NCBI GenBank assembly: GCA_018970725.1
Contig: JAGWVU010000007.1
Coordinates: 62,001 to 126,000, forward strand
DNA length: 64,000 nucleotides
Direction of reading: 5' to 3'
Source: Verrucomicrobiota bacterium
GTDB lineage: Bacteria; Verrucomicrobiota; Verrucomicrobiia; Verrucomicrobiales; DEV007
Part shown: piece after piece, positions 2,654 through 41,722 of the stretch
How positions within the stretch are numbered: the stretch's first letter is position 1
Layout of the letters: the number at the start of each line of letters is the position of its first letter
The notes under the pieces: model-generated
The model's database searches: none
What the model was told of the DNA's origin: nothing
Seen by the model: the letters and a program-made list of their open reading frames with translations, nothing else
Position numbers and translations under genes: made by a program

Positions 2654-3601
2654 TCACTTGACCAAACCCGAACTTAGCTGGGTCACCGCTTGACGCAGGC
2701 TGGTTAGACCGGCCTCCGCAGCCTGCAATTCGGCGGCCTGTTTTGCCGCCAGCTCACGGACCCCGTCCAAGGAACGCTGCAAGGCGCCGATCCTCTCCTC
2801 CCCGCGCACCGTCATCTCTTTGCGCCCGGCCTCAAGTTGCCCGATCTGCACCAAACGCTGATCGGCCAAAGCCCGCGCACTGGCCAGCTCCTGACGCGTC
2901 TGGGCCACCAAATCACGCTCTGAAGAAAGCTGTTGGGTCAGGGAATCCGCATCCCGCTTCCGCGCGTCCGCCAGATTCTGGACCGCCACCAACCGGGTCT
3001 GCGTGACTTGGCCGATCTCCGTCAACGCGGCGACTTCACTCTTCAGCCGACCGTTTTCCGCGCCGCGCTGGTCGGCCAAAGCAGCGAACGAGCGCGCTTC
3101 CTGCCGGGCGGCGGTCAATTCCGTGTGCAGGGTCGACTCCGCCTCACGCCCATCCGCCAGGCGCTGGGTCATCCCGGCCACCTGATAGGCAAATCCCTGA
3201 AGCCGCTCACGGTGGACAATCTCCGACTCGGCCTGCTCCTGCCGGGCCAACCGGGCCACCTCACGGACCTCGCGGATCTCGGACAAGAGTTTTTCCAACT
3301 CCGCGTCCAGCATCGCGTTGCGCTGCTCGGATTCATCGAGCCGGGCCTGCAGCGCGGACAATTCCGGGCTCCAATTCCGATTCGCCCCCCCCGCGCCTCC
3401 CGTTCCGGCGGCGGTCGTGGAAAGGAGGGCGGACCGCGTTTCGACCCGGTCGGGGTTCAGTCCTTTGAGCACTCCTGCCAGCATGATCAGCGGCAGTCCG
3501 ACGGCGACCGCGAGCGAGGCCAGCAGGTCGTTGCCCCGCGGGATCTCGACGATCTCGGACTCTGAGGCGAGGGGATGGGAATGGCCGGAAGAAGAGGGCA
3601 T
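2654..3601 (-). CDS. Single-pass membrane coiled-coil protein, unknown function
   Basis: 315 residues from the ATG at 3601. A short cytoplasmic N-terminus (about 30 residues) is followed by one hydrophobic segment (LLASLAVAVGLPLIMLAGVL). After a glycine/alanine linker come roughly 220 residues of heptad-like Glu/Gln/Arg/Ala/Leu sequence, a long coiled coil. No enzymatic motif is visible. It starts 37 bases after the end of the OmpA-like gene on the same strand, and both encode a transmembrane helix plus coiled coil, so the two probably act together in the envelope. The longer frame up to 3739 runs into the upstream gene and is rejected. Confidence 0.7.
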   Translation of the reverse strand: MPSSSGHSHPLASESEIVEIPRGNDLLASLAVAVGLPLIMLAGVLKGLNPDRVETRSALLSTTAAGTGGAGGANRNWSPELSALQARLDESEQRNAMLDAELEKLLSEIREVREVARLARQEQAESEIVHRERLQGFAYQVAGMTQRLADGREAESTLHTELTAARQEARSFAALADQRGAENGRLKSEVAALTEIGQVTQTRLVAVQNLADARKRDADSLTQQLSSERDLVAQTRQELASARALADQRLVQIGQLEAGRKEMTVRGEERIGALQRSLDGVRELAAKQAAELQAAEAGLTSLRQAVTQLSSGLVK

Positions 3602-3638
3602 GGCGGGTTCGGGGCTTCGGGTTGTCAAAAAAGGAGGT

Positions 3639-4976
3639 TCAGGGATCGATGCGCCAAAGTTCGACCACACGGTTCTTGGAGAGATCACCCGGGTCGAATT
3701 GGGACGTTTCACCGAAGAAAACCATTTGCACTTTCCCATCGCGGACGACCGGACGCACCAGATCGGCCACCGCTTGGGCGCGCCGGGAGGAAAGACCGTC
3801 GTTGTAGCCGGACTGGCCCTTCACCGATGCGTAACCCACCGCCAAAAGGTAGGCATTCGGAGCGATTCCGGAAACTGCGCGGTTCAGCGCGGCCGTTGCG
3901 CCGGGACCGGGCCGGGCTTCGGCATCGTCGAAGTGAATCCGGGCCACCAACGTACCCAAACGGTTGGATTGCACATAGGCGTCCCGCACCTCCACGGCCT
4001 CCCGGGCATGCGTCGAAAGTTTCAAGGTCTGGAAAAGAGGCACCGCCCCGATCCAAAGATCCCCGGGCTGCACCGCCTCCGCCGGCAACACGGTCCAATC
4101 CGAGGAACGGCGGAAGGCATCGGTGCGCCCCTCCTGGCGCGTCGCCGATTGCTTCTTCAATTGCTCCTCAAGGCCGCGGATCCGGTCTTGCGCCGCTTCC
4201 AGCTCTTTCCGAAGCCGGGGCAGCTCATCACCCGGAACGGCGGGAACCGCAGGGGAGACAGTGTCCGGTGGCATCGCCGGAGTCACGGGAACGGCCGGCG
4301 CCGTCTTCTGCCGCAGGATCATCCGCTCCAACTCGGCCACCGCCGCCTCACGATCCTTTTCGGCCGCAGCCAACCGCGTCTGCAATTTCCCGAGGTCGGC
4401 CCGCGCCTTTTGCAGCGCCACCCCTTCCTCCCGGGAAAGCCCGCGCAACTTCGCTTCAGAAGCTTTCAACCGCTCCACCTCGCCCCGGGCCGCCGCCAAC
4501 TCCCCCGCCCCTTCCGAGGCCCGCGCCTCGTGGCGCTTGTTCGTCCCGTTCAACTCCACCACCAAGTCCTTGAGAACGTTCATCTCCCGCTCCATGGCCG
4601 CCAGATCCGAGGCGGGAACCCATCCCGCCAATTTCTGCTCCTGCTGCGCCAGCCTCGCGCGCAACTCCGCGTTGTCGCTCTCCAACAGAGCCAGCCGGGC
4701 GGAAGACGCCCGCGCCGCCACCTCTGCCGCCGTCCCTCCCGTTCTCGCGACCACGGCGGGCACCTCCGGCAAAACCAGCTCCTCCGGCCCATCAAAAACC
4801 ACGGGCCCCGCGCTTGGCCGCCCCCCCCACACCGAAGGCACCAGCCCGGGGACTGCGCCCGGGGAAAACCAGGCGAACAACAGCGCGATGAGAATCAAGC
4901 CGAGAGCGAGCGCCATGAAGATCATGACGCGCTCTTCCTGCTCCCTGGTCTGGGAACCGATGGGGCTCGCACTCAT
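3639..4976 (-). CDS. Membrane-anchored coiled-coil protein with OmpA-like C-terminal domain
   Basis: 445 residues from the ATG at 4976 (a second ATG at 4997 adds seven). One N-terminal transmembrane helix (MIFMALALGLILIALLFAW) is followed by a long coiled coil (about residues 90-290) broken by a proline/valine-rich stretch. The C-terminal ~110 residues resemble the OmpA/MotB peptidoglycan-binding fold: LVARIHFDDAEA, a YNDGLSSRRAQAVADL motif and a terminal NRVVELWRI strand. Such proteins usually link the inner membrane to the cell wall. It is probably the first gene of a two-gene operon with the coiled-coil protein downstream. The partner complex is not identifiable. Confidence 0.72.
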   Translation of the reverse strand: MSASPIGSQTREQEERVMIFMALALGLILIALLFAWFSPGAVPGLVPSVWGGRPSAGPVVFDGPEELVLPEVPAVVARTGGTAAEVAARASSARLALLESDNAELRARLAQQEQKLAGWVPASDLAAMEREMNVLKDLVVELNGTNKRHEARASEGAGELAAARGEVERLKASEAKLRGLSREEGVALQKARADLGKLQTRLAAAEKDREAAVAELERMILRQKTAPAVPVTPAMPPDTVSPAVPAVPGDELPRLRKELEAAQDRIRGLEEQLKKQSATRQEGRTDAFRRSSDWTVLPAEAVQPGDLWIGAVPLFQTLKLSTHAREAVEVRDAYVQSNRLGTLVARIHFDDAEARPGPGATAALNRAVSGIAPNAYLLAVGYASVKGQSGYNDGLSSRRAQAVADLVRPVVRDGKVQMVFFGETSQFDPGDLSKNRVVELWRIDP

Positions 4977-4997
4977 GCGTTTATCATGCGGGGGCAA

Positions 4998-5080
4998 AGG
5001 GCCGACATCAAGCGGTTATTTAATAATTCTTAAATAACTACGATTATCGCAAAATTACTCATCTGATTTATATGGAGGTT
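4998..5080 (-). promoter_or_regulatory. AT-rich region upstream of the OmpA-like gene
   Basis: In a window of about 63% GC this stretch is conspicuously AT-rich (around 5020-5070: TTATTTAATAATTCTTAAATAACTACGATTATC). It lies directly upstream of the minus-strand OmpA-like gene and downstream of the VWA gene. It is the best visible place for a promoter of the two-gene coiled-coil operon. No -35/-10 pair is clear enough to name. Confidence 0.35.
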
Positions 5081-5139
5081 CTGACCTGCAGCAAGAGCAA
5101 TCACTGCTGCCCCTTGAACAGGCCGCACCGAGCTGGCTC

Positions 5140-7878
5140 TCAGCGCAACCGCTTCGCCCGGTCGAACCGGGAGCGTCTCCGGTCCACTTCCGCCGGGTCT
5201 CCGGCCGCGGCAGCTGCTTGGGCTGGTGCGGGGCCCTTGCCGGGCGCTGGCGCCGGAGCACCGGCTGGCGGGGCGGACTCCCGGGCCGGTATCGCCGACC
5301 GGTAAGCGCCGGAGGGAGCCGACCGGGGAGACGCCTTTTCGCCCCTGGCTCCACGGCCGAACGAAATCCGGTTCCACCCCAGCCGGGTGGCCAACGCCTC
5401 CGCCAAAATCAAGAGCAGGGCGGCGCCCAGAAGCCAGGGCTGGATGCTGGCGAATTCCTTGGTCTCCGGTTGCTGCCAGACATCCGCCAGATTGATCCGT
5501 TCCTGACCCCCGGATTGGGCGGCCACCTGACGCAACTCCTCGACCCGGCTCCGGTCAAAGGTCCACTCCGGACTGCCCCCCACCACCACCGGACCGAACG
5601 GGATCGCCAGATCGCCCACCTGCACCGCCCCGCGGGTCAGCACTCCGTGTTCCAGACTGGATTTGGCCCGGAAATGCCCGGGCTCGAGACGCTCCCAAGC
5701 CACTTCCCGGACGCTTCCCTCTCCGGTCTTCGCCCCGTCCGCAAGGAAAACCCGGGGCGGAACCGCCAGACGCTGGAACCAGGTATCGTCATGGAGGAGG
5801 TCGATGCTCAACTCGGTGCCATCCAGCCGGGTCCGCAACCCGAGACCGGGCGGCAGCATTTCCCCCATGAGCCAGCGGGTCAGGGTTTGCGCAAAGTCCG
5901 CCATTTGCGGCCAAGCCCGGGTGGCAGCGGAAAATTCCCCGCCCAAGGGAAAACAGACGGCGGCGGTCCGGCCCAACCCGCGCTGCACGCAGGCCACCAG
6001 CGGCGCCTTGTATTCGTCCGTGGTCAAGGCCATGACCGACGTCTGCGGCCGGGCATAACTCAAATTGTAACCGTCCACCCGGGAGAGCCAGGCCAGGCTG
6101 TCCCGGGAGATCTCCAGCCACCTCCCGCTCGGCACCAACCCGACCGCCTCCTTGATGAACATCGACCTCGCCACCGCCACCGTCTCCTGCGCGAAGATGT
6201 TCGGCACCGTGGTGGCGTCGTCCGTGAAGAACATCCGTCCCTTGCCCAGTTTCGCGATGTCCTTGAGCAGGGCCGCATCCACGTCTTTCTCCGTCCCCAG
6301 CCCGATCACGCTCACGGACGCCCCCTCAGAAACCATTTCCCCGACGAGCCGCTTGTAGTCCCCCGGTTCCTCGGAGTCCGCCGCATCGGAAAACAGGATG
6401 AGGTGCCGCTGCCCCACCTCGGCCTTCTTGAGGTCCTCCCAACCCGCCTTGAGCCCCTCGTAAACAAAAATCCCACCGCCCGTGCTGCCGATGCGCCGGA
6501 CCCGGTTCACGATCGAACCCCGGTTCGGCCCCACCACCGTCAGCGGAACTTCCCGGTGCGGCGAGCTGTCGACCGCGTGGACCGTGACAAAGTCGAAATC
6601 CCCGAGCAACTCCACCGCCCGGGCCGCCCCTTCGTTCGCCAAATCCATTTTGCTCCTCCCTCCGGCCACCGTGGCCGACATCGAACCGGAACGATCCATC
6701 ACAATCGCCATGGCCACCGCCAGCTTGCGGTGCTCCGCTTTCAACTCCATCGAAACCGGAAGCAGCGGATCGATCGACGATTCAAAATACCCTCCCGCCC
6801 CGAAACTGCGGGTTCCCCCCGCCATCAGAAGGCCGCCGCCCTGGCGCCGGACGAAAAAGTCGATGGACGCGAGGAAGTCCGACGGGATCTCATGGGCGGG
6901 CACATTGTTCAGGATCAACACCTTGGCCCCCGTCAACTGCCCCGCATGCAGCCCGGCCGGCTCCATGATCTTTTCCACCGTGAATCCCTGCGCCGAAAGA
7001 ATGCGTTGCAACGGATCGTCCTGATAACGGGTCACCAAGAGAACCCTCGGACCGGACACGATCTCCACCCATCCCTCGAACCGGTTGTTCCCTGAATAAG
7101 CGTCCTCCACGGACAACCGGGCCTCATAGCGGTGGGCCCCGGGCTCCACGAGACGCGCCGCGAACCGGAGCGATCCCGTCCCCCCCTTGATCTCCACCGT
7201 CTCCTCCCGCTCTTCCCCGCCATCCCGGGAAATCAAGACCGGCACGGTGCCGTCCCGGTTGCCGCGCACCTCGATTTCCACGATGAACGGTTCCCCGGGC
7301 CGCTTCCGGGATGGCAACCGCAGATCCAGAATCTGGTAGTCCGTCGCTTCCGGCGGAGCCACGAGGCGGAAATCCAGCGGAACCCCGGCGCCTTGCAGCT
7401 TCAAACCCACGTCCCCAAGCGGCTCCGTGGCATAACCATCGGTAAAAACCAGCATCCGCGCGTGCCGGTCCGGATCCAGCGAAGCCAGCGTCGTCTCGAT
7501 CGCCAACCGGGTCCGCGTATGGTTCGCCGCCCCGGCCACCGTGCCGGTCTCCGGTCCCGTCAATTCAACGGCCTCCCCGGAGAAATTGACCCAGCGGATC
7601 CGGTCGGACCTCGAGGGCATGGAACGCCGCAACAACTGTTCCCACTCCCGGAAGGAACGCTCCACGAGGGAGCCCGCCGATTGGGACCGGTCCACCAGCA
7701 CCCACAGGTCCATGCCCCGCTCCGTCCGGTTGATCCGCGGATCCGCCAGCACCAGGACCAACACCAGCAGGCAGGCCCCGCGCAACGGCCGCCAGAGACG
7801 GAGCCCCTTCCAAAACCAGCCGCAGATCAAAAGGACCGGCAGTAGGAAAAGCCATTGGGGAGAACTGAAGACGACCAT
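5140..7878 (-). CDS. VWA-domain membrane protein (BatA-like, glutamine-amidotransferase-like region)
   Basis: 912 residues from the ATG at 7878. Two N-terminal hydrophobic segments (WLFLLPVLLICGWF and ACLLVLVLVLA) and one near residues 820-840 (PWLLGAALLLILAEALA) indicate a membrane protein with a large domain between. A von Willebrand A domain with a complete MIDAS start (VMDRSGSMS, about residue 394) lies in the middle. Before it, KVLILNNVPA and the following glycine-rich segment resemble the class-I glutamine-amidotransferase-like region common in these long PVC proteins. The C-terminal ~90 residues are a low-complexity Pro/Ala/Arg tail. Metal-dependent protein binding at the periplasmic side is likely; the partner is unknown. 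Confidence 0.75.
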   Translation of the reverse strand: MVVFSSPQWLFLLPVLLICGWFWKGLRLWRPLRGACLLVLVLVLADPRINRTERGMDLWVLVDRSQSAGSLVERSFREWEQLLRRSMPSRSDRIRWVNFSGEAVELTGPETGTVAGAANHTRTRLAIETTLASLDPDRHARMLVFTDGYATEPLGDVGLKLQGAGVPLDFRLVAPPEATDYQILDLRLPSRKRPGEPFIVEIEVRGNRDGTVPVLISRDGGEEREETVEIKGGTGSLRFAARLVEPGAHRYEARLSVEDAYSGNNRFEGWVEIVSGPRVLLVTRYQDDPLQRILSAQGFTVEKIMEPAGLHAGQLTGAKVLILNNVPAHEIPSDFLASIDFFVRRQGGGLLMAGGTRSFGAGGYFESSIDPLLPVSMELKAEHRKLAVAMAIVMDRSGSMSATVAGGRSKMDLANEGAARAVELLGDFDFVTVHAVDSSPHREVPLTVVGPNRGSIVNRVRRIGSTGGGIFVYEGLKAGWEDLKKAEVGQRHLILFSDAADSEEPGDYKRLVGEMVSEGASVSVIGLGTEKDVDAALLKDIAKLGKGRMFFTDDATTVPNIFAQETVAVARSMFIKEAVGLVPSGRWLEISRDSLAWLSRVDGYNLSYARPQTSVMALTTDEYKAPLVACVQRGLGRTAAVCFPLGGEFSAATRAWPQMADFAQTLTRWLMGEMLPPGLGLRTRLDGTELSIDLLHDDTWFQRLAVPPRVFLADGAKTGEGSVREVAWERLEPGHFRAKSSLEHGVLTRGAVQVGDLAIPFGPVVVGGSPEWTFDRSRVEELRQVAAQSGGQERINLADVWQQPETKEFASIQPWLLGAALLLILAEALATRLGWNRISFGRGARGEKASPRSAPSGAYRSAIPARESAPPAGAPAPAPGKGPAPAQAAAAAGDPAEVDRRRSRFDRAKRLR

Positions 7879-32365: not shown

Positions 32366-33610
32366 TCAACTTCCCCGGCGGATCTCCGATCCCGGGAAGC
32401 TGATGACGAAGCGCCAAACCTTCTTGGTGCGGCATTCGATCTCGAACGTCTCCCGGTTGATCCGGGCCGGTTCGGCGTATTTGCGCACATCCACCACCGT
32501 GTGAAAACCGCGCTCGGAAAAGATGTCAATGATCATGGCGAGCACCCGGTGATCCTCGAGCATCGGATGTTCCGAGTTGATATAAGCCTTGCCTGAAATG
32601 GAATGAGTCACGATGATGGGAAGAAATTTCTCCTCGATCAAATCCACGGCTTGCGCGAATAAATCCCCATCTTCCTGACAATACGCATCGAGCCGCCGCA
32701 CAAGATCCTGCCTGGCGTGCACACTGAGACTCTGGGCGATCGGAATCCGTCCGATGACATCGTGGGTGCGTTGGTCCAGCTCGAGGGAGCTTTGATAGCG
32801 CAACTCGTCCTCGATGCGGCGCCGCACTTCCCAGACGGAACCGTGCGCATTGATGTAATGATAAAAGAAGACCTCGCGCAAGCTCGTCAGGGACTCGTAG
32901 GTCACCTCCTTGAACGTCCGGTAACGGTTCCGCGCCGTCTTGCGGGAAAGGTCAGTGGCCCGCACCTCGGTCCGCCGGCCCACTCCCGAGGCCTCGACCT
33001 CCCGGTTGTTCTGCAGGGCGCGCTCCCCGCGCGAAATCTGGCGCCGGACGGACTCCGCCTCATCGATGAAAAGGACCACGATGTGGAACATCGGCTTGGG
33101 AAATTGTCCCTCCCGCTCCGTGCCCCGGTAAGTGCCGCGCATTTGCAGCAGTTTCTCGTGCAGGAGCTTCAGGCAGATGACCTGGACCTTGGTGCGCGGA
33201 TAGCCGTCCACCACCACTCCGGAAGCGTTCTCCGGGCGCAGCAGGGCCCGGATCACCAGCGCGGTCACCTCCCGGTCCCCCACCATCATCCCGGAATCGA
33301 TCAATTCCCGCGCCTCCGGACTTTGCAACAGGGAGCTGACGAGAACCGGCGGCGCGGTGAGCCCGCGGAACTGCATGATGAATTCCGTCTGGGTACCCTT
33401 GCCCGCGCCCGGAGCCCCGTTGAGCCAGATCACCTCTTTGGGAAACCGGATCCGATCGAGCCCCATCTCTTCCTCGAGGCCCTGCCAGACGGAATTGAAG
33501 ATGAGGTGGGCGTCCTTGACCTCAAGATCAAGCGACTTCGCGGCAGCGTTCACCGGGTTCTCCGCGGAGACCGCACCGGCGTCGGGGACAGGGGGAACTG
33601 GGTAAGACAT
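32366..33610 (-). CDS. Adenylate-kinase-like nucleoside monophosphate kinase with C-terminal extension
   Basis: 414 residues, much longer than the usual 180-220 of adenylate kinase. The P-loop is [12 protein letters not shown] (about 64-74) and the NMP-binding signature is VVDGYPRT, so an ADK-type core is secure. After it come an arginine-rich lid-like region ([11 protein letters not shown]) and about 160 further residues ending in a separate domain ([30 protein letters not shown]) that I do not recognise. It is the third gene of a minus-strand set with an actin-like ATPase and an unknown protein, with an 85-base gap. Nucleotide recycling for the filament is one speculative link. Confidence 0.78.
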
Positions 33611-33695
33611 GGACCTCTCCTTACCAACCCGCGACTCGCCTTGAAGTCAATCCGGGAATCGCGCGCGGGGAGGAGAAACCGGGTTCCGGAGCCTG

Positions 33696-34985
33696 TCAGG
33701 CCAAATCAAAGAGCACGGAAGATCCGCCCACCGCGCTCGCACCCCGGACCACGCCGGGAACAATCTCCACCTGCCGTGTGCCCCCCAGGGGCGCTCCCGC
33801 CTTGGGCAGATAGACGGTGGAGACGCCCCAGGGAGCCAGCGCCATCCGGAGCCTTGCCGTCAGGGCCGGGATATTGTTGCCGCCTCCGGTCAAGATCACC
33901 TCCTGAACCCGGGTGGGGCGGTGGAGCCGGAGAAAGGCGTCCATGGCGGCAGCGATCCCTCCGGAGAACCGGTCCATCACGGTGCGGATCCGCGCCCGTT
34001 CCGCAGCACTGCCGTTCACCGCGCCGCCGGCCGGCAGGGTCCATTCCCGCTCCTCCGTGTAGACCACGCGGTGAAAGCGCTCCCATGCCGCCCCGGTAAA
34101 CCGCCGCGCCTGATCGGCCATCGGCTCGGGAAGAACCTCGATGACCCGCCGGTCCAACTCATGAATCCCGAGCGGAACGGATTTTGTTTCGGAGATGGGG
34201 ACAAAACCGTGACCCGCCAGATCGATGGAAATCAATCCGAAATCCGTGGTGTAAGCCCCCACGTCCACGATCAGCGTGGCGTATTCCGGCACGTCCCCCT
34301 CGTCGCCTTCCTGGCACACCGCCGCCATTTCCAGAAGATGACTGCGCTCGAACATCTTCGGCACGTCCGCGAACAGTTTGCCGGGCTGCGGTTCCAACAC
34401 CGCGTTGTGTCCCTGGGTCAGGGCTCCGGTCAGGTTCGACATCGGCTCCGAACAGCAATAAGAGGCCGGGTGATGCCAGCCCGCCTCATCGAGCATGCGG
34501 TCCATCTCGGCGGCGTGGGGCGAAAACATGGCGAACTCCGGAATACAGATCCGCATCACCACCTTGCCGAGATCCTGGCCCGGGATCATCCGGGGCACCA
34601 GATCCTGACGGAGCCAACCGAGGTAACGGGCCGCCACATTGCGGGCGCGGGCGTAGGAACCAGGTCCATCCCGCAAGCCCTCGTGCGCATCTTCCCCGAG
34701 CAGATCCCATGGGTTCCCCGCGCCCGGGCCATCGGGAAAAAGATCCGCCTTCCAATTGCGGTAAACATGAATCCCGTTCCCGGCCACCATGTCCGCCGCC
34801 TCGATCCCGAACGCCCAACGGTCATCCCGCTCCCGCCAGGCCGCCACCGAGGGAATGCAGACGTGTTGGTCGTCCAAGCTCAACTCGTTCAGACTCAGGA
34901 GCCGGGACCGGGAGAACGGAGTCTCCCGGAAGCCGATTTTGGTGTAGGCGGAGCCGAGGTCGATGCAGAGGGAGGAAGGGAGCAT
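33696..34985 (-). CDS. Actin-like ATPase (ParM/StbA/Hsp70-superfamily)
   Basis: 429 residues from the ATG at 34985; the longer frame to 35048 overlaps the upstream gene. The actin-fold nucleotide site is intact: phosphate 1 is SLCIDLGSAYTKIGF (residues 5-19), phosphate 2 is ATLIVDVGAYTTDFG (236-250) and the adenosine motif is VILTGGGNNIP (about 370). A large insert between phosphate 1 and 2 lacks obvious transmembrane segments. I cannot place it in ParM, MamK, Alp or DnaK-like groups from the motifs. It lies 19 bases after an unknown 233-residue gene. No plasmid partition genes are nearby, so a cytoskeletal or chaperone-like role is open. Confidence 0.8.
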   Translation of the reverse strand: MLPSSLCIDLGSAYTKIGFRETPFSRSRLLSLNELSLDDQHVCIPSVAAWRERDDRWAFGIEAADMVAGNGIHVYRNWKADLFPDGPGAGNPWDLLGEDAHEGLRDGPGSYARARNVAARYLGWLRQDLVPRMIPGQDLGKVVMRICIPEFAMFSPHAAEMDRMLDEAGWHHPASYCCSEPMSNLTGALTQGHNAVLEPQPGKLFADVPKMFERSHLLEMAAVCQEGDEGDVPEYATLIVDVGAYTTDFGLISIDLAGHGFVPISETKSVPLGIHELDRRVIEVLPEPMADQARRFTGAAWERFHRVVYTEEREWTLPAGGAVNGSAAERARIRTVMDRFSGGIAAAMDAFLRLHRPTRVQEVILTGGGNNIPALTARLRMALAPWGVSTVYLPKAGAPLGGTRQVEIVPGVVRGASAVGGSSVLFDLA

Positions 34986-35004
34986 GAGGGATTTCGGTCG
35001 TCCG

Positions 35005-35706
35005 CTACACTGGCGCAACCCGCGCTTTTTCCAACAAGTAGTCGCCACTTCCGTCGTGCATCCTCCACCCGGGCTCGATCACCACGGCGGCATCCCCCGG
35101 AAACATCGGCTCACCGGACGTGTGCAGGCTTCCGGCGAAGACCACCCGTTCCCCGGCCACCCCGATCGGATGCAACCCGACCCCGCGCATTGCCCTCGCG
35201 ATCCCTTCCCGGACCTCGGCATTCGCCGCGTGCTTCCAACTCAAGGTCAGTTCCCGGGCCATCTGATGTTGGAAATCCGCCGGCGCCCGGTCTTCCCCCG
35301 GGCCGGGAAACCGGAAGTCCCCGGACAGGGCATCGGCACACCGTTCCCATTCCGGTCGGTCCGCGCTCCAGCCGCGCATTTGCAAGAGGAGGAGCCATTT
35401 CCTGAGAAAGACCCGCTGGTAAAGGACAGAAACGGACCAAACCAGGGCGCATCGCTCTTCCGGCGCGGTTTCTTCCAGCAAAACCCCGATCCCTGCCTCG
35501 GTGAGCCGGACCCAGCGCGTTTGGTTGGAACCACGGGGTTCCTCGTGCAGCCACTGCGGGACCGCTTGCGGGATGAGGTGAAGCCGGGACACCGGGAACA
35601 AGCCCGGGACGGCACCACCCGCCGCCCGTGCGATGAGGCGGGCCGGACCGTCAATCCGGGCCGCCCGGAGCAGGGCATCGAAAACCAGGGAACGGGCGGT
35701 GGACAC
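35005..35706 (-). CDS. Hypothetical protein preceding the actin-like gene
   Basis: 233 residues from a GTG at 35706. There is no signal peptide, membrane segment or recognised motif. The sequence is rich in Trp/Arg (QWLHEEPRGSNQ, EWERCADAL) and ends with GWRMHDGSGDYLLEKARV. Close spacing (19 bases) to the actin-like ATPase suggests an operon partner, for example a regulator or client of the filament. Its 5' end is divergent from the plus-strand gene whose ATG is at 35858. Confidence 0.65.
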   Translation of the reverse strand: MSTARSLVFDALLRAARIDGPARLIARAAGGAVPGLFPVSRLHLIPQAVPQWLHEEPRGSNQTRWVRLTEAGIGVLLEETAPEERCALVWSVSVLYQRVFLRKWLLLLQMRGWSADRPEWERCADALSGDFRFPGPGEDRAPADFQHQMARELTLSWKHAANAEVREGIARAMRGVGLHPIGVAGERVVFAGSLHTSGEPMFPGDAAVVIEPGWRMHDGSGDYLLEKARVAPV

Positions 35707-35857
35707 AAGGCAAACTTATCACGAAGATCCCGCGCCGGGGATCCGGTCAAGCCACATTTCGTCACATTTCCGAGGACCGTCGGAGCGTTGCCGAAAAAGC
35801 GTGTTTGCCGATGCGGTATCGGTGGCATTTTTTCCTTCCCTGCTCCAGAATGCGGGC

Positions 35858-36544
35858 ATGGAAAAGACGACTTCCAAAGGTTTTGGCTGGGTGATCGCCG
35901 TCGTTCTCTTGTTGGGCGGAGCGGGCGCGGCCGTGTGGTTCAGCCGGGAACAACCCGCCGTGGCCGCCGTGATCGGAAAGGCCGCGGAGAACAAAGCGGC
36001 GCCAGCGCCGGTGCGCCCCTTGCCAGCCAGTTCCTTGGAGAACCGGCCTGCGGCCGCCCCCATGAGCGCCCCGACCCCGCCGCCCGCTCCGGAAAACACG
36101 CCCCGCGGCGTGGCCGCGCTGGAAGAGATCGACACCGTTTTGCGGGACCAAACCGTTTCCACCGACGCCGCCGCGCAGCGTTTGGTGAAGCTGGCCTCCG
36201 ATGAGGCGGTCCCCGCGGAAATCCGCAACGAAGCCCTGCAACACGCCATGAACCTGCTGCCGGACGAGGCCTTCAACTCGGTCGATGGCATGATCAAGGC
36301 CAAATCGACTCCGCCGGAGCTGTTGGACCTGCTCTTTCACGAGATCCACAACCGTCCGGTCGATGTGCAACTCCCGACTGCGTTTCTCCTGATGAGCGAG
36401 CGGCGTGGTGAGGAGATCAGCCAACAGGCGCGCGACCTGCTCTCGTTTCACCTGGAAAAGGACTTGGGCGACGATCCGGCTGCGTGGGCCCCGGTCGTGC
36501 AACAGGCCACCGCCAAGGCCAGGACCGAGGGCGCCGCCAGATGA
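35858..36544 (+). CDS. Single-pass membrane protein upstream of gspE, unknown function
   Basis: 228 residues from the ATG at 35858. One N-terminal transmembrane helix (FGWVIAVVLLLGGAGAAVWF) is followed by an alanine/proline-rich linker (about 40-85) and a helical C-terminal domain of HEAT-like character (AAQRLVKLASDEAVPAEIRNEAL). Its stop overlaps the first possible start of gspE (ATGA at 36541), so it is probably co-translated with the T2SS genes. It may be an accessory T2SS component. I do not recognise a named Gsp family. Confidence 0.68.
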   Translation: MEKTTSKGFGWVIAVVLLLGGAGAAVWFSREQPAVAAVIGKAAENKAAPAPVRPLPASSLENRPAAAPMSAPTPPPAPENTPRGVAALEEIDTVLRDQTVSTDAAAQRLVKLASDEAVPAEIRNEALQHAMNLLPDEAFNSVDGMIKAKSTPPELLDLLFHEIHNRPVDVQLPTAFLLMSERRGEEISQQARDLLSFHLEKDLGDDPAAWAPVVQQATAKARTEGAAR

Positions 36545-38280
36545 ACAATCCGCGGGGTCCGGGCGTCGGATCCTGCCAACGGGAAGTGTCCGCAATGAAT
36601 CAAGTGGTGTCGGAAGAAGAGTTCGCCTGGTTGGAGACGGCCCACGGGAGTGGTCCGGACTTCGTGGAGGAAAAGCTCTCCCGGTTCACCGATGACGAGT
36701 GGCAGCGGCTCGCGGCCCACCTCCATCTCGCCTGGACCGGTCAGCCGGAACCGGACGCCGGGCAGCGCCTCCTCCTCCAGGAACTGGTCCCCTCCTCCCT
36801 GGCCAACCGCCGCCAGGTTCTGCCCCTGCGGATCGAGGCTCCGCCGGATGCGCTCCCGGACGCCTCGGCCCCGCTCCACCTCGCCTGCCATCGCCCGTTC
36901 GATCTCGCCGCCCGTCAGGAGGCGGTCCGCACCGCCCGGCGCCCCCTGATCTGGCATCTCAGCCCGCCCCGCCGCATCGTCGAGGGCATCCAACGCTTCT
37001 ACGGATTGGGTGCGGATACCTTCGACGACATCCTCAAGCACCACGCGAACGACCTCTCCGGGGATGAGGAAGACGAGGGGGATTCCATCGACGACGAACC
37101 GGGCGACGACGAGGCCTCCATGAGCCGCCTCGTGAACCACTTCCTCCGGGAAGCCTTGAAACGCCGGGCCACGGACATCCACCTTGAACCGATGAAGGAT
37201 CGCTTGCGGGTCCGTTACCGCATCGACGGCCATCTGCAGGAAGTGCCCACGCCGGAGCAAATCAAACGCTTGCAGTCGATGTTCCTCTCCCGGATCAAGA
37301 TCATGGCCGGTCTGGACATCGGAGAAAAGCGCCTGCCTCAGGACGGCCGGATCTCCCTGACCCAGAAGGGACGCAACCCGATCGATGTCCGGGTCGCGGT
37401 GATCCCGACCAATCTCGGGGAAGCGATCAGCCTCCGCCTTCTCGGAGCGGAAAAATACGATCTGACGAAGCTGCAGATGACCCCGGAAATCGTGTCGGTC
37501 GTCCGTCGCGTGCTCCGTCAACCCAACGGGATCGTCCTCGTCACCGGTCCGACAGGCAGCGGCAAGTCGACCACCCTTTACACCTTCCTCAGCGAGCTCA
37601 ATACCGAGGAACGACGCATCGTGACCATCGAGGACCCGGTGGAAAACCAATTGGCCGGGGTCACCCAGATCGCGGTCAAGGCGTCGATCGGTTTAACCTT
37701 CGCCGCCGGGCTCCGATCAATTCTCCGCGGCGACCCCAACGTGATCATGGTCGGGGAAATCCGGGACTTGGAAACGGCGGAAATCGCGATCCGCGCCGCA
37801 TTGACCGGGCACCTTGTGTTCTCCACGCTGCACACCAACGACGCCCTCACCGGGATCACCCGCCTCGTGGAAATGGGGTTGGAGCCGTTCCTCGTCGCTT
37901 CCTCGGTCCGGGCCTTTCTGGCGCAACGATTGGTCCGCACCCTGTGCCCTTCCTGCGCCACCACGAAACGATACACTGCCGAAGATCTCCGGCACATGGG
38001 ATTCCCCGCCACGGCGGACATGGCCCTGGCCGCCAAAGGGGAACAGCCGAACTGCGAGAGTTGCCGCGGCACCGGGTATTTCGGCCGGATGGCGGTCTAC
38101 GAAATCGTCGAGATCAGCACCGCGCTTCAGGACCTGATCACCCGGCGCGCCACCTTGGGGGATCTGGAAATCCAGGCCAAATCTGAGGGGTTCCGCACCA
38201 TGCGTGAATACGGTTGGGAAAAAATCCTGGCCGGCAAAACCAGTGTCGATGAGGTCATCCGGGCCACCGCAGGCTCATGA
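36541..38280 (+). CDS. gspE: Type II secretion ATPase GspE
   Basis: 579 residues from the ATG at 36541, which overlaps the preceding stop (ATGA); the ATG at 36595 with a GGAAG upstream is the alternative. The N-terminal ~150 residues are the divergent T2SSE/MshEN region, ending in an acidic stretch (DEEDEGDSIDDEPGDDE). The core motifs are complete: ATDIHLEP, Walker A GPTGSGKSTT (about 334-343), the Asp box TIEDPVE, Walker B IMVGEIRD and His box STLHTND. A four-cysteine zinc motif follows (CPSC and CESC). It powers pseudopilus assembly from the cytoplasm. Confidence 0.93.
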   Translation: MNNPRGPGVGSCQREVSAMNQVVSEEEFAWLETAHGSGPDFVEEKLSRFTDDEWQRLAAHLHLAWTGQPEPDAGQRLLLQELVPSSLANRRQVLPLRIEAPPDALPDASAPLHLACHRPFDLAARQEAVRTARRPLIWHLSPPRRIVEGIQRFYGLGADTFDDILKHHANDLSGDEEDEGDSIDDEPGDDEASMSRLVNHFLREALKRRATDIHLEPMKDRLRVRYRIDGHLQEVPTPEQIKRLQSMFLSRIKIMAGLDIGEKRLPQDGRISLTQKGRNPIDVRVAVIPTNLGEAISLRLLGAEKYDLTKLQMTPEIVSVVRRVLRQPNGIVLVTGPTGSGKSTTLYTFLSELNTEERRIVTIEDPVENQLAGVTQIAVKASIGLTFAAGLRSILRGDPNVIMVGEIRDLETAEIAIRAALTGHLVFSTLHTNDALTGITRLVEMGLEPFLVASSVRAFLAQRLVRTLCPSCATTKRYTAEDLRHMGFPATADMALAAKGEQPNCESCRGTGYFGRMAVYEIVEISTALQDLITRRATLGDLEIQAKSEGFRTMREYGWEKILAGKTSVDEVIRATAGS

Positions 38281-39572
38281 GCAAAACCACCGCCACCGAA
38301 TTCCGTTTTACCGCGGTGGAAGCCGGGGGCGGCCGCCGCAGCGGCACCCTCTCGGCGCTCGACCGGAGCGAGGCCCTGCGAAAACTCAAGCGGGACGGGC
38401 TCCAACCGGTGGAACTCAGCGAGGTGGCCCCCGCCCCCAAAGAGAAGGAGAAGGCGACGGCGGCCCTGTCCAAAACGGAAACCCGTTCCCCATCCGCGTC
38501 CGCCAAGGATCGCCCCACCGGCAAACTGATTCTCAAACCGGATCAGGTGGTCGATTTCACGGAGGAATTCGCCGATCTTCTGGCCGCCGGGATTCCCATG
38601 GATGACGCCTTGGTGCTGATCGAGCGCCGCAAGGAAAAATCCGCGATGCGCGACGTGGCGGCCGGGGTGGCCTTGCATGTGAACGAGGGCAAATCCCTCG
38701 CGGAAGCGCTGCGCCGCACCTCCACCAGTTTCGGGGACCTTTACTGCGCGCTGGTGGCCGCCGGTGAAGCCAGCGGTTCGCTCGGGCAGATCCTGCGCCG
38801 TCACGCCGCGTATCTGCGCAACATGCGGGAACTCAAGGGGAAGGTTCAAGGGGCGATGATCTATCCCTCGTTCCTGGTCTTCTCCGGGTTGCTGGTGATG
38901 GTGCTCTTCGTGAGCTATCTCCTGCCGAGGCTTGCCAAGATGCTGGAATCCCAAGGGGCCAAACTTCCTCCGCCGGCCGCTCTCCTCATGGCCGCCGGGG
39001 GCGTGCTCAAGACGTTCTGGCCCTTCCTCCTGATCGGACTGATCCTCCTCGTCCTCGTTCTCCGGCTCGCCCTGCGCTCGCCCCGGTTCCGGGAGGCGTG
39101 GGACCGCGCGGTGATGAGCCTTCCGGGAATCGGCGCCCTCCTCTGGGCCCGGTTCCACGTCCAATTCACCGAAACCTTTTCCGGCCTGCTCAAGAACGGG
39201 CTCACCATGCAGAGGGCCATGACGCTCTGCCAGAACACCACCTCCAATCAATTTCTCCGCCAGCGCATCTCCACCATCAGCGAACTGGTCAGCAACGGCA
39301 GCACCCTGGCCAATGCCTTCGAAAAATCCGAAGCCTTCCCTCCTTCGATTTGCGACATGGTCCGCATCGGCGAACACACCGGCCAACTTCCCGAATCCCT
39401 CGGCAAGGCGGCGGAACGGCTTGATCGTGACCTGACCCGGCGGATGGAGACGATCGGCGAACTCTTTCAACCCGTCATCATCCTGGTGCTCGCTCTGGTT
39501 GTCGGCGGCATGGCTTGGATTATGATGGGTTCCGTCTTTGAAACCATTTCCCGGCTCCAAAACCGCGGTTGA
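38277..39572 (+). CDS. gspF: Type II secretion inner-membrane platform protein GspF
   Basis: 431 residues starting at an ATG overlapping the gspE stop (ATGA). The N-terminal ~90 residues include a short domain and a low-complexity linker. Two GspF repeats follow, each ending in a hydrophobic region (MIYPSFLVFSGLLVMVLFVSYLLP and the C-terminal PVIILVLALVVGGMAWIMMGSVFE), with a third segment (FLLIGLILLVLVLRLAL). The VAAGEASGSLGQILRRHA and RIGEHTGQLPESL motifs are typical. It anchors the GspE ATPase to the assembly platform. Confidence 0.93.
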   Translation: MSKTTATEFRFTAVEAGGGRRSGTLSALDRSEALRKLKRDGLQPVELSEVAPAPKEKEKATAALSKTETRSPSASAKDRPTGKLILKPDQVVDFTEEFADLLAAGIPMDDALVLIERRKEKSAMRDVAAGVALHVNEGKSLAEALRRTSTSFGDLYCALVAAGEASGSLGQILRRHAAYLRNMRELKGKVQGAMIYPSFLVFSGLLVMVLFVSYLLPRLAKMLESQGAKLPPPAALLMAAGGVLKTFWPFLLIGLILLVLVLRLALRSPRFREAWDRAVMSLPGIGALLWARFHVQFTETFSGLLKNGLTMQRAMTLCQNTTSNQFLRQRISTISELVSNGSTLANAFEKSEAFPPSICDMVRIGEHTGQLPESLGKAAERLDRDLTRRMETIGELFQPVIILVLALVVGGMAWIMMGSVFETISRLQNRG

Positions 39573-39598
39573 ACCCCCATCCTGATATCCCCACCCCA

Positions 39599-40006
39599 AT
39601 GAACCCAATCCCACTCCGTCCCGGGCGTCGCAACGGCGCCTTCACCCTGTTCGAGATGATCCTCGTGCTGGCCATCATCGCCATCCTCATCGGCCTCGGC
39701 ATCTATCACCTCTCCGGAACCGAGGACACCGCGAACATCGTGAGGGCGCGGGCCGACTGCAAGACGATCGCCATGACCCTGACCCAATACAAGGTGCGGC
39801 ACTCCCGGCTTCCCACCCAAGGCGAGGGCCTCGCCCCCCTGACCAAGGGACCGGACGGCTCCAGCCTCATCAAGCAGGAAGCCCTCACCGATCCCTGGGG
39901 ACAGCCTTACCAATACCGCAATCCATCGCGAAAAGGCAACGGCAGCTTCGATGTCTTCTCCGCCGGCCCGGACGGACAACCGGAGAGCCCGGACGACGTG
40001 TATTGA
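39599..40006 (+). CDS. gspG: Major pseudopilin GspG
   Basis: 135 residues from the ATG at 39599; an upstream TTG at 39569 is less likely. The prepilin segment is NGAFTLFEMILVLAIIAIL, with cleavage expected before FTLFE and the glutamate at +5. The C-terminal half has the GspG calcium-loop pattern: SRLPTQGEGLAPLTKGP, DPWGQPYQYRNP and FSAGPDGQPESPDDVY. It is the main subunit of the T2SS pseudopilus. The alanine (not glycine) directly before the mature phenylalanine is a tolerated variant. Confidence 0.92.
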   Translation: MNPIPLRPGRRNGAFTLFEMILVLAIIAILIGLGIYHLSGTEDTANIVRARADCKTIAMTLTQYKVRHSRLPTQGEGLAPLTKGPDGSSLIKQEALTDPWGQPYQYRNPSRKGNGSFDVFSAGPDGQPESPDDVY

Positions 40007-40030
40007 TCCGCTGCCGCGCCCGGATTTCCG

Positions 40031-40522
40031 ATGAGGCCGACCGCCCCCAGCCGACGTTTGAATGCGCCGGGGTTCACCCTGCTGGAGCTGGTCTTCGTCA
40101 TGGCAATCATCGCCTTGGTCATGGGCATGAGCGCTTTTTCCCTGGCCGAGTTTGAACAAAACCGGTCCATCGACGCCGCCCGCGCGGACCTGACCTTTCT
40201 GGTGCGCCAGGCGCGGCAGGTGGCTTCGGACACCGGGGAAACCGTGTGGATTGTCTTTGAAAAGAACCGCTTCGGGCTGCTCGATTCCCGCGGACCGGGC
40301 GCCATTTCCTGGTCCCAGGGGGCCGACATCGCGGTCCGTCTGCGGCGGGTGGGCGAGAGGAAGTGGCAGCAACCCGAGCTTTTCTTCTGGGAATTCACGC
40401 CCCGGCAATTGGGCGAGCCGCTGGCCGTGAGACTGACCGGCCTCCAGGGAGCGGACCTCGGGCTCGAGTTCAGTCCCTTGAGCGGCGAGTCCCAACTGCT
40501 CGATCCCGCGAAACTCCGATGA
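40031..40522 (+). CDS. gspH: Minor pseudopilin GspH-like
   Basis: 163 residues. Prepilin cleavage motif PGFTLLELVFVMAIIALV with E at +5. The following LTFLVRQARQVASDTGETVWIVFE is the usual GspH/FimT pattern. It lies 24 bases after gspG, and its stop overlaps the start of the next gene (ATGA). The assignment as GspH rests on the position and this pattern; the C-terminal half is divergent. Confidence 0.82.
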   Translation: MRPTAPSRRLNAPGFTLLELVFVMAIIALVMGMSAFSLAEFEQNRSIDAARADLTFLVRQARQVASDTGETVWIVFEKNRFGLLDSRGPGAISWSQGADIAVRLRRVGERKWQQPELFFWEFTPRQLGEPLAVRLTGLQGADLGLEFSPLSGESQLLDPAKLR

Positions 40523-40941
40523 CCGCGCCCACGACCAACCGGAAATGGCAACGCGACACGGGCGGTTTCACGCTTTTGGAAGCGATCCTGGCCTGCGCCG
40601 TGTTTTCAGTGGCGGCCATCGCTCTGGCCCACAGCCTCCAGATTCTGGGAGACATTGTGACCAATGTCCGGCGTGAGGAGGAGATCGTGCGGACCTTGCG
40701 GACCATGCTGGAGGAACAACGTTTTTTGCGCCCCCTGACTCAAGGGGAACAGGTCCTCGAATCCCCCTTTCCGGAAGTGACTTTCCGCACGGTCACCAGT
40801 CAGTTCGAAGCCCAGAACCGGGATGGGCAACCGCTCACGGGACTGTATCGGGTGGCCGTCGTGGCCCGTTGGAAAGAGGGAACCCAAACCCGCGAGCGGA
40901 CCGCGGAGGCGCTGTGCAATGAAGAGCTTCCCGACTACTAA
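40519..40941 (+). CDS. gspI: Minor pseudopilin GspI-like
   Basis: 140 residues from the ATG at 40519, overlapping the gspH stop. Prepilin motif GGFTLLEAILACAVFSVAAIALAHSL. The rest is short and divergent, with a beta-rich region (YRVAVVARWKEG). Position after gspH and before the longer gspJ-like gene supports GspI. Its 3' end overlaps the start of the next gene by 23 bases. Confidence 0.78.
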   Translation: MTAPTTNRKWQRDTGGFTLLEAILACAVFSVAAIALAHSLQILGDIVTNVRREEEIVRTLRTMLEEQRFLRPLTQGEQVLESPFPEVTFRTVTSQFEAQNRDGQPLTGLYRVAVVARWKEGTQTRERTAEALCNEELPDY

Positions 40942-41722
40942 CCGCCCGGGACCGGCTGCAACTGGAAGGACCGGGTTCACCCTGCTGGAGACCATTCTGG
41001 CGTTGGGCGTGACCTTCCTCATCGTCACCACCGCGTTCGGGATCGTCACCTCCTGCATGGAGCTGGGGGATACCGTCCGGATCAGCCGCACCGGCCGGGA
41101 AGAGAAAGCGGCGGTCGAGGACCTCTTCCGGAATTTCTTCAGCACACTGCCGCAGGACTCGGCCTTGGAATGCCGGGTTTCCGGTTCCTCACGAACTCCG
41201 CTCACCGAGATCCGTGTCCAGAACGCTCCGGCCTTGGCGGGCTCCATCCTCAACCCGGGACCGAACGAAGTCCTCGTCATCCAGACCACTGAAGAACCCG
41301 GTGGTTACCTCAGGCTCGGGGTCGGCATCTCCGAGGGCCGGCTCGGCACCGCGCGCGCCGGACCGGTCTCCGGGTTCGCCGTGGCGGGCCAGATCGCGAT
41401 GTGCCGGTGGCGCTTTTTCCAAGCGGATCGCAACCAATGGCAGGAGAAATGGGACCTCACCATGGGCCGCCCCCGCTTTGTCGAACTCACGTTCTCCCAA
41501 ACCAGCGCTCTTCCGGAACGCTGGGTCTTCCCGGTGCCCGTCTTCGCCGCCCCCCAAACGGGAAACGACCCTCAAAACCCCAATCCGCCGACGGACGAGG
41601 ACGGCGATGGAAAGCCCGACAACCCAGGTCAACCGCCCCGGGACGGAGACAGACCCCGGCCCGACGGAGGCCGACCGGGTCCCCCGAACGGCCCGCCCTT
41701 GCCCAACCGCAACCGACCTTGA
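40919..41722 (+). CDS. gspJ: Minor pseudopilin GspJ-like with hydrophilic proline-rich tail
   Basis: 267 residues from the ATG at 40919, which overlaps the gspI 3' end. Prepilin motif TGFTLLETILALGVTFLIVTTAFG. The globular part includes a beta-strand pattern (RPRFVELTFSQTSALPERWVFPV). The last ~60 residues are an unusual Asn/Pro/Gly/Asp/Arg-rich tail (DEDGDGKPDNPGQPPRDGD). Such a tail is not part of usual GspJ. The stop overlaps a TTG used as start by gspK. Confidence 0.8.
   Translation: MKSFPTTNRPGPAATGRTGFTLLETILALGVTFLIVTTAFGIVTSCMELGDTVRISRTGREEKAAVEDLFRNFFSTLPQDSALECRVSGSSRTPLTEIRVQNAPALAGSILNPGPNEVLVIQTTEEPGGYLRLGVGISEGRLGTARAGPVSGFAVAGQIAMCRWRFFQADRNQWQEKWDLTMGRPRFVELTFSQTSALPERWVFPVPVFAAPQTGNDPQNPNPPTDEDGDGKPDNPGQPPRDGDRPRPDGGRPGPPNGPPLPNRNRP

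Follow-up and report, generated by a model that had tools for sequence, protein, structure and literature searches.

The window, i.e. the whole 64,000-nucleotide stretch of Verrucomicrobiota DNA analysed here, carries on its minus strand three open reading frames that a first-pass annotation had described as a single operon. The gene read first (35005-35706, GTG start) encodes a partner protein of 233 aa with a winged-helix-like N-terminus and a GrpE-like C-terminus. It is followed, with the length and the 19 nt gap claimed by the annotation (-11 to +30 nt in relatives), by a gene (33696-34985) for an ATPase of 429 aa counted from its ATG, an Hsp70 NBD-like, actin-fold protein without a substrate-binding domain. 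An adenylate-kinase-like gene (32366-33610, 414 aa) lies a further 85 nt away, and we judge it to be a neighbour outside the module. Two points had escaped the first reading, namely that a GrpE-like domain is encoded upstream and that, among solved folds, the ATPase comes nearest to the Hsp70 NBD.

Relatives were found by scanning genome contigs with an alignment, a single-sequence scan having yielded none. In 30 of the 33 scorable loci, the gene immediately before that of the ATPase encodes a partner with a GrpE-like C-terminus, bearing out the tight link between the two genes that had been proposed, and a recognisable partner is absent from the other three. The pair-bearing loci belong to Verrucomicrobiota, Planctomycetota, Myxococcales, Gemmatimonadetes and others, and because relatives in several phyla keep the upstream partner, the pairing is more than chance. 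The genome studied here has three copies of the ATPase, each preceded by a partner, and also encodes an ordinary DnaK and GrpE. Within the partner family, the conserved part is the GrpE-like domain. The two proteins are co-inherited, the distances among partners following those among ATPases (r = 0.866, 32 pairs; best of 5000 permutations 0.293). Chromosomal positions of the pair copies are stable, and 11 of 34 loci, each of them labelled Planctomycetota, have hisB at most 3.2 kb upstream of the pair. No relatives were present in IMG/VR, in 50,697 phage records or in 72,556 plasmid records, and on this ground a viral or plasmid origin is rejected; together with the conserved chromosomal contexts, the missing plasmid match agrees with the earlier description of the ATPase as a non-partition protein. 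The ATPase and its partner seem to form a conserved pair that is apparently undescribed.

The AF2 model of the ATPase (pLDDT 87.4) gave 50 listed Foldseek rows, 49 of which named the Hsp70 family (best E 1e-14) and the remaining one was 7sqc, an entry holding HSP70A. VIA-align placed the model on the DnaK NBD 5obw (Z 29.1, rmsd 3.1 Å over 322 residues); MreB, ParM and actin were absent among the best 50 listed, which does not in itself exclude them. The best PDB profile matches of the family were also to Hsp70. The substrate-binding domain is missing, the 429-residue open reading frame and the NBD match finishing at the same point. Sequence searches gave a more diffuse picture: PF00012 (HSP70) was not listed for the window ATPase and matched 2 of 33 members (best E 0.041), MreB-like_C and PilM_2 being matched more often than HSP70 by the 33 single members, and the window ATPase fell under the cut-offs of the MreB_Mbl (11.5/27 bits), MamK (15.4/400) and NCBIfam BeeR (12.1/530) models. 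By hhalign the family is as near to MreB (95.9) as to Hsp70 (83.0), and placement by sequence alone was dropped, since this comparison did not decide between the two. A tree was built from the window ATPase and 19 of the 34 loci, with 13 Hsp70 and 5 MreB rows from related genomes; BeeR (with the BeeR-like loci L164 and L166) and ParM/StbA were left out, and L073, whose frame is cut at a contig end, was removed. The 20 ATPase-family rows formed one side of a branch (support 100/99) and the 13 Hsp70 rows a separate branch (98/98), so that the family falls outside both Hsp70 and MreB, in a tree where long branches were flagged. The phylogeny called for by the first-pass annotation therefore separates the ATPase from DnaK-type proteins, its StbA/ParM part lying outside the tree. 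The ATPase is a member of the actin/Hsp70 superfamily in a clade of its own, with family lengths of 405-484 aa.

The nucleotide site, described earlier as the intact site of an actin-like ATPase, is indeed invariant over 33 aligned family members. All its elements are on the minus strand: the phosphate-1 loop (34938-34964; residues 8-16, IDLGSAYTK) with D9, G11 and K16, K79 (34749-34751), E180 in an EP motif (34446-34448), and the phosphate-2 loop (34242-34265; residues 241-248, DVGAYTTD) with D241, G243, T246 and D248, each identical in 33/33 rows. In the adenosine-motif TGGG (33879-33890; residues 366-369), G367, G368 and G369 are invariant. Profile alignments match K79 to the lysine of the Hsp70 AKRL motif, which we take to be the catalytic Lys70/71, and E180 to its counterpart in NEPTAA. 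At the +7 position of the phosphate-2 loop the ATPase has D, as does Hsp70, whereas the MreB comparison rows have E. By this profile correspondence, and given the roles of the catalytic residues in Hsp70, the complete Hsp70-type D, K, E, D, D set is present in 33/33 members. The long insert between the phosphate loops noted earlier also stands, their spacing being 232 residues in the window ATPase and 213-279 in 19 of 20 family rows (one unmeasurable), against 161-188 in Hsp70 (13 rows) and 142-144 in MreB (5 rows), with both sets taken from related genomes.

The partner gave an AF2 model with pLDDT 92.5 and pTM 0.59, and no match in Pfam and NCBIfam scans. Its residues 1-84 (35455-35706, minus strand) form a predicted winged-helix-like domain, aligned by VIA-align to MarR/PadR-type regulators (3elk, Z 7.9, rmsd 2.7 Å over 73 residues). 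This is a middling match, as a Z near 7.9 can reflect a common arrangement. By eye, this front part is not clearly basic in the window partner, and DNA binding is therefore putative. Residues 135-233 (35008-35304, minus strand) resemble GrpE, the nucleotide-exchange factor of chaperone Hsp70. The top VIA-align match of this part was GrpE 1dkg_B (Z 8.7, rmsd 3.2 Å over 91 residues), and GrpE/GrpEL1 occupied Foldseek ranks 1-3, where no match reached E <= 0.001 and that to GrpE (E 0.0087) is not significant alone. The hhalign comparison of the C-terminus with GrpE scored 43.1 (prob 92), with 7 of 21 loci giving no row to the GrpE set; among the controls, 30 column shuffles stayed at or below 18.4, the reversed profile gave 14.4 and six unrelated families did not exceed 20.1. 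In PDB profile searches, the C-terminal profile had GrpE 3a6m as its best match (E 0.024), and the whole-partner profile placed GrpE at E 0.41, beneath low-complexity matches. PF01025 (GrpE) was not listed for the window partner, nor among the 25 families listed for 28 partners, and the long N-terminal paired helices of GrpE are missing from the window model, which has the winged helix and short helices in their place. Fold and profile lines combined, none of them overwhelming alone, qualify the predicted C-terminal domain as GrpE-like.

Upstream of the pair, a direct repeat, AAATGTGAC-G-AAATGTG (35753-35769, minus strand), is a candidate operator; it is near-unchanged in three genomes of the genus and occurs as one copy in the window against none expected. 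A perfect inverted repeat is found exactly once per genome in three genus genomes, just before the partner gene of the second copy, and possibly hints at self-regulation. Inverted repeats upstream of copies a and c were not above shuffles in most rows.

We consider it probable that these two genes constitute a module in which an NBD-only ATPase of the Hsp70 type is served by its own winged-helix/GrpE-like exchange partner, perhaps tethered to DNA and self-regulated. The GrpE-like end of the partner would dock on the ATPase and hasten ADP release, and would thereby set the timing of its return to the ATP state. Tethering of this switch to DNA or to another binding partner may fall to the winged helix, or in other lineages to a different front domain, the simplest site for the winged helix being the pair's own promoter. 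The ATPase would then act on whichever complex, of protein or DNA, it has docked with, altering the state of that complex; a classical folding chaperone role is unlikely, because the peptide-binding domain is missing. A bolder version, which we put forward tentatively, would make the pair an ATP-driven, DNA-tethered regulator present in four or more phyla, in which one protein serves as both exchange factor and DNA binder and exchange is gated by operator binding, giving a self-regulated timer or switch. If the two-gene module is borne out, control of nucleotide exchange would be a portable unit from which switches of the actin/Hsp70 fold can be built, and the ATPase with its partner would offer a clean two-protein test system.

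Alternatively, the ATPase might polymerise as a cytomotive filament like MreB, ParM or BeeR, with the winged-helix partner as a DNA or cargo adaptor in the manner of ParR or TubR. The hhalign score to MreB and the weak matches of single members to MreB, MamK and BeeR models would fit, as would the presence of TubR (4asn) and the pNOB8 centromere-binding protein (4rs8) in the structural list for the winged-helix part. We nevertheless regard a filament as unlikely, given that the best solved folds are Hsp70 NBDs, that the conserved part of the partner is GrpE-like, and that the family is missing from the plasmid and phage records and keeps stable chromosomal places, such as those near hisB. It is similarly improbable that the GrpE-like domain kept the shape and not the job, serving for docking or dimerisation beside an ATPase that needs no exchange factor. 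The distance of the partner sequence from GrpE, too large for Pfam, and the lack of the long paired helices in its model speak for such a change, but the conserved domain adjoins the gene of an Hsp70-fold ATPase, the place expected of an exchange factor, in nearly all scorable loci.

A defence or conflict role, akin to PDC-M61 (a PADLOC candidate) or to HSP70/GrpE as found in GTPase-centred conflict systems, appears somewhat less plausible still. PDC-M61B matched 19 of 33 ATPases at E <= 0.01 (best 1.7e-8) and PDC-M61A one of 28 partners (E 5.4e-4), the window partner having no PDC-M61A match, and the portion of PMC7159879 considered here describes neighbourhoods in which HSP70 and GrpE occur along with an HSP70 domain that lacks the peptide-binding part. 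However, the PDC-M61B matches inspected cover short stretches, the window ATPase reaches just E 0.014, and matches in 11 of 14 control genomes mean that this profile may report the superfamily; moreover, the neighbouring genes resemble housekeeping or secretion genes, with no effector seen by eye.

Matches spanning at least 90% of the adenylate-kinase-like gene (PF00406, E 9.7e-11 over residues 64-151) occurred in 17 of the 38 genomes searched, an 18th holding it in two pieces, and 13 of the 17 carriers have no ATPase pair. Of the four pair-bearing genomes that carry it, two (that of the window and one relative) have it behind the ATPase in the same orientation, and in the other two the pair and this gene are on separate contigs. 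This gene order contradicts the three-gene operon and shows none of the conserved linkage expected for it, leaving the filament with an adjoining nucleotide-recycling enzyme unsupported and scarcely credible; the gene is probably a mere neighbour of the pair.

The pair resembles the Hsp70/GrpE system in its ATPase fold, in which catalytic residues it has and how they are spaced, and in the GrpE-like domain of its partner; it differs in lacking the substrate-binding domain, in its longer inserts, in the winged helix fronting the partner, and in that the GrpE-like domain, known from a chaperone-Hsp70 exchange factor, is here paired with an ATPase outside the Hsp70 clade. BeeR, described in the part of PMC11929497 consulted as a three-stranded actin of Verrucomicrobiota with unknown function and MamK as nearest relative, has the phylum and the actin superfamily in common with the ATPase, which lacks the N-terminal extension, is nearest to the Hsp70 NBD in fold and falls well under the BeeR cut-off. 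The two-protein candidate phage defence system PDC-M61 has A and B models with weak similarity to the partner and ATPase families, respectively, with inspected matches that are short and of superfamily level and a profile B of 588 positions, longer than any of the ATPases. The GAP1-N2 conflict systems likewise combine an HSP70 domain lacking the peptide-binding part with GrpE, but according to the sections of PMC7159879 at hand this NBD-only HSP70 sits in larger, GTPase-centred neighbourhoods that also hold ordinary HSP70, none of which was seen here by eye, and those sections describe no winged-helix-GrpE fusion. A precedent for the arrangement is given by two loci of related Verrucomicrobiota (L191 and L194), in which FHA-GrpE fusions are encoded directly upstream of short, dedicated Hsp70 genes of about 496 aa. 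These Hsp70s are recognised by Pfam (E 1.9e-97 and 4.3e-104), the GrpE match is weak and under cut-off, an FHA domain stands in place of the winged helix, and the partner compares weakly with the FHA-GrpE intermediates (prob 22, 26 columns). In both arrangements, the exchange domain is fused to a possible recruiter, a winged helix here and FHA in the related pairs.

All three ORFs noted in the first-pass annotation were present on the minus strand: the gene of a 233-residue partner protein (35005-35706), that of a 429-residue ATPase (33696-34985) and an adenylate-kinase-like gene (32366-33610), the first two separated by the reported 19 nt and the last two by 85 nt. However, the proposed membership of the adenylate-kinase-like gene in an operon was not borne out by conserved linkage: it follows the partner-ATPase pair in the window's own genome (G000) and in G002, but lies on a different contig from the pair in G001 (C19 versus C29) and G020 (C13 versus C95 and C99). 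This gene is a neighbour of the pair, with some match in 25 of the 38 genomes searched, over at least 90% of its length in 17 and in two pieces in an 18th, whereas the ATPase was found in four (own genome counted). The match to ADK spans residues 64-151 of its product, which carries an additional C-terminal region and is conserved in many relatives. Divergent from the pair lies a type II secretion/pilus-like cluster (ATPase, inner-membrane protein and pseudopilins, named by eye from the sequence; 36484-41722).

In contrast to the three-gene unit, the two-gene module is real and conserved. G000 (4.9 Mb in 108 contigs) holds two further ATPase copies, on contigs C23 and C94, each with a separate upstream partner. 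The ATPase is rare in the phylum, since draws of 288 genomes from the phylum and 384 from the class returned the window's own genome alone, and no relatives were found in the viral contigs, plasmids and phages searched. An alignment-based scan of genomes of 84,980 species recovered at least 34 loci, a lower bound because the scan relies on short patterns, from Verrucomicrobiota, Planctomycetota (chiefly Gemmataceae), Myxococcales, Gemmatimonadetes, a deltaproteobacterial MAG and others, according to record titles. Seven of these (L054, L055, L065, L082, L083, L085 and L087) come from genomes already in the 38-genome search, and L057 corresponds to the G020 copy. The title Akkermansia muciniphila of L054, L065 and L082 (CAMCXS01 contigs) looks wrong, as they match the window's own genus.

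Partners could be scored in 33 loci, L085 beginning within the ATPase. A protein with a GW...K/R-x-x-V/I ending lies directly upstream of the ATPase in 28, and a partner in 30 when L079 and L086, by-eye additions with a deviating end, are counted; none was found upstream in L058, L081 and L084. In L058, the ORF preceding the ATPase (6004-7242) encodes 1678 aa with a different ending. Distances among the last 100 partner residues and among ATPases were correlated (r 0.866 over 32 pairs, from 29 of the 30 partner loci and the three G000 copies, truncated L087 being left out; best of 5000 permutations, 0.293), which shows shared inheritance, as expected of linked genes, and is by itself no proof of contact. 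The pair follows hisB within 3.2 kb in 11 of 34 loci, often so in Planctomycetota, and is therefore a settled chromosomal feature. L060 carries two pairs in tandem (3118-7212), and the ATPase of L077 (5959-7359) has a cysteine-rich C-terminal tail resembling a zinc-binding motif, with a partner of 515 aa.

The ATPase model (AF2, pLDDT 87.4, 33 input sequences) resembles Hsp70: among the 50 Foldseek matches listed, 49 carried this family name, with E values down to 1e-14, and the remaining entry, 7sqc, contains HSP70A, while VIA-align superposed 322 residues on a DnaK nucleotide-binding domain (NBD; Z 29.1, rmsd 3.1 A). In profile searches of PDB sequences, Hsp70 (E 2.2e-5) preceded MamK (2.2e-4) and MreB (0.003). 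Against an Hsp70 placement, hhalign scored MreB above Hsp70 (95.9 versus 83.0), and the Pfam matches were to MreB-like_C in 18 of 33 members, to PilM_2 in 15 and to HSP70 in two. In a 39-row tree, which carries a long-branch warning, 20 family members grouped together (100/99), apart from 13 Hsp70 (98/98) and six MreB-side sequences (85/94). The ATPase is therefore best called Hsp70-NBD-like, not an Hsp70. No substrate-binding domain is present. As first claimed, the nucleotide site is intact, with D9, G11, K16, K79, E180, D241, G243, T246 and D248 invariant in 33/33 sequences; position +7 of the second loop is D, the Hsp70 residue, whereas MreB sequences carry E there.

The partner matched no Pfam or NCBIfam model. 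Its predicted structure has a pLDDT of 92.5 and a pTM of 0.59, so that domain packing is unsure. By VIA-align, residues 1-84 resemble MarR/PadR winged helices and residues 135-233 GrpE (1dkg_B top, Z 8.7). The first three Foldseek matches were GrpE (3a6m), GrpEL1 (9blt) and GrpE (8gb3), none reaching E 0.001, and when the C-terminal ~100 residues of 31 partners were built into a profile, its best PDB match was GrpE (E 0.024). Against 14 GrpE sequences of related genomes this C-terminal profile scored 43.1 in hhalign (prob 92), compared with at most 18.4 for 30 column-shuffled copies, 14.4 for a reversed copy and at most 20.1 for six unrelated families. These comparisons point the same way, and the domain adjoins an Hsp70-fold ATPase.

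The partner gene of the second copy is closely preceded by a TTGATCTY-N4-RAGATCAA inverted repeat that is perfect in all three genomes of the genus (TTGATCTT-ACAG-AAGATCAA at G000:C23:20854-20873, in L013 just before 8896) and could be an operator. It occurs without mismatch once per genus genome and nowhere else in these or G020; the reversed pattern had no match. A direct repeat upstream of the window copy (35753-35769) was kept. Both repeats would fit binding by the winged-helix partner, making self-regulation possible.

The identity of the module's parts is well supported, and its mechanism is one that we infer. The module is apparently undescribed: among the matches listed in searches of open-licence papers, none dealt with a fusion of winged helix and GrpE that accompanies an Hsp70-like ATPase reduced to its NBD, which is not proof. 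In related genomes, FHA-GrpE proteins are encoded directly upstream of ~496-aa Hsp70 genes (L191:2246-4652; L194:2182-5495), so that the fusion of an exchange-factor domain to a recruitment domain, and its pairing with a dedicated Hsp70 in this gene order, has parallels; their direct similarity to the window's GrpE-like domain is weak (prob 22). The nearest published precedent is in PMC7159879, and BeeR is described in PMC11929497.
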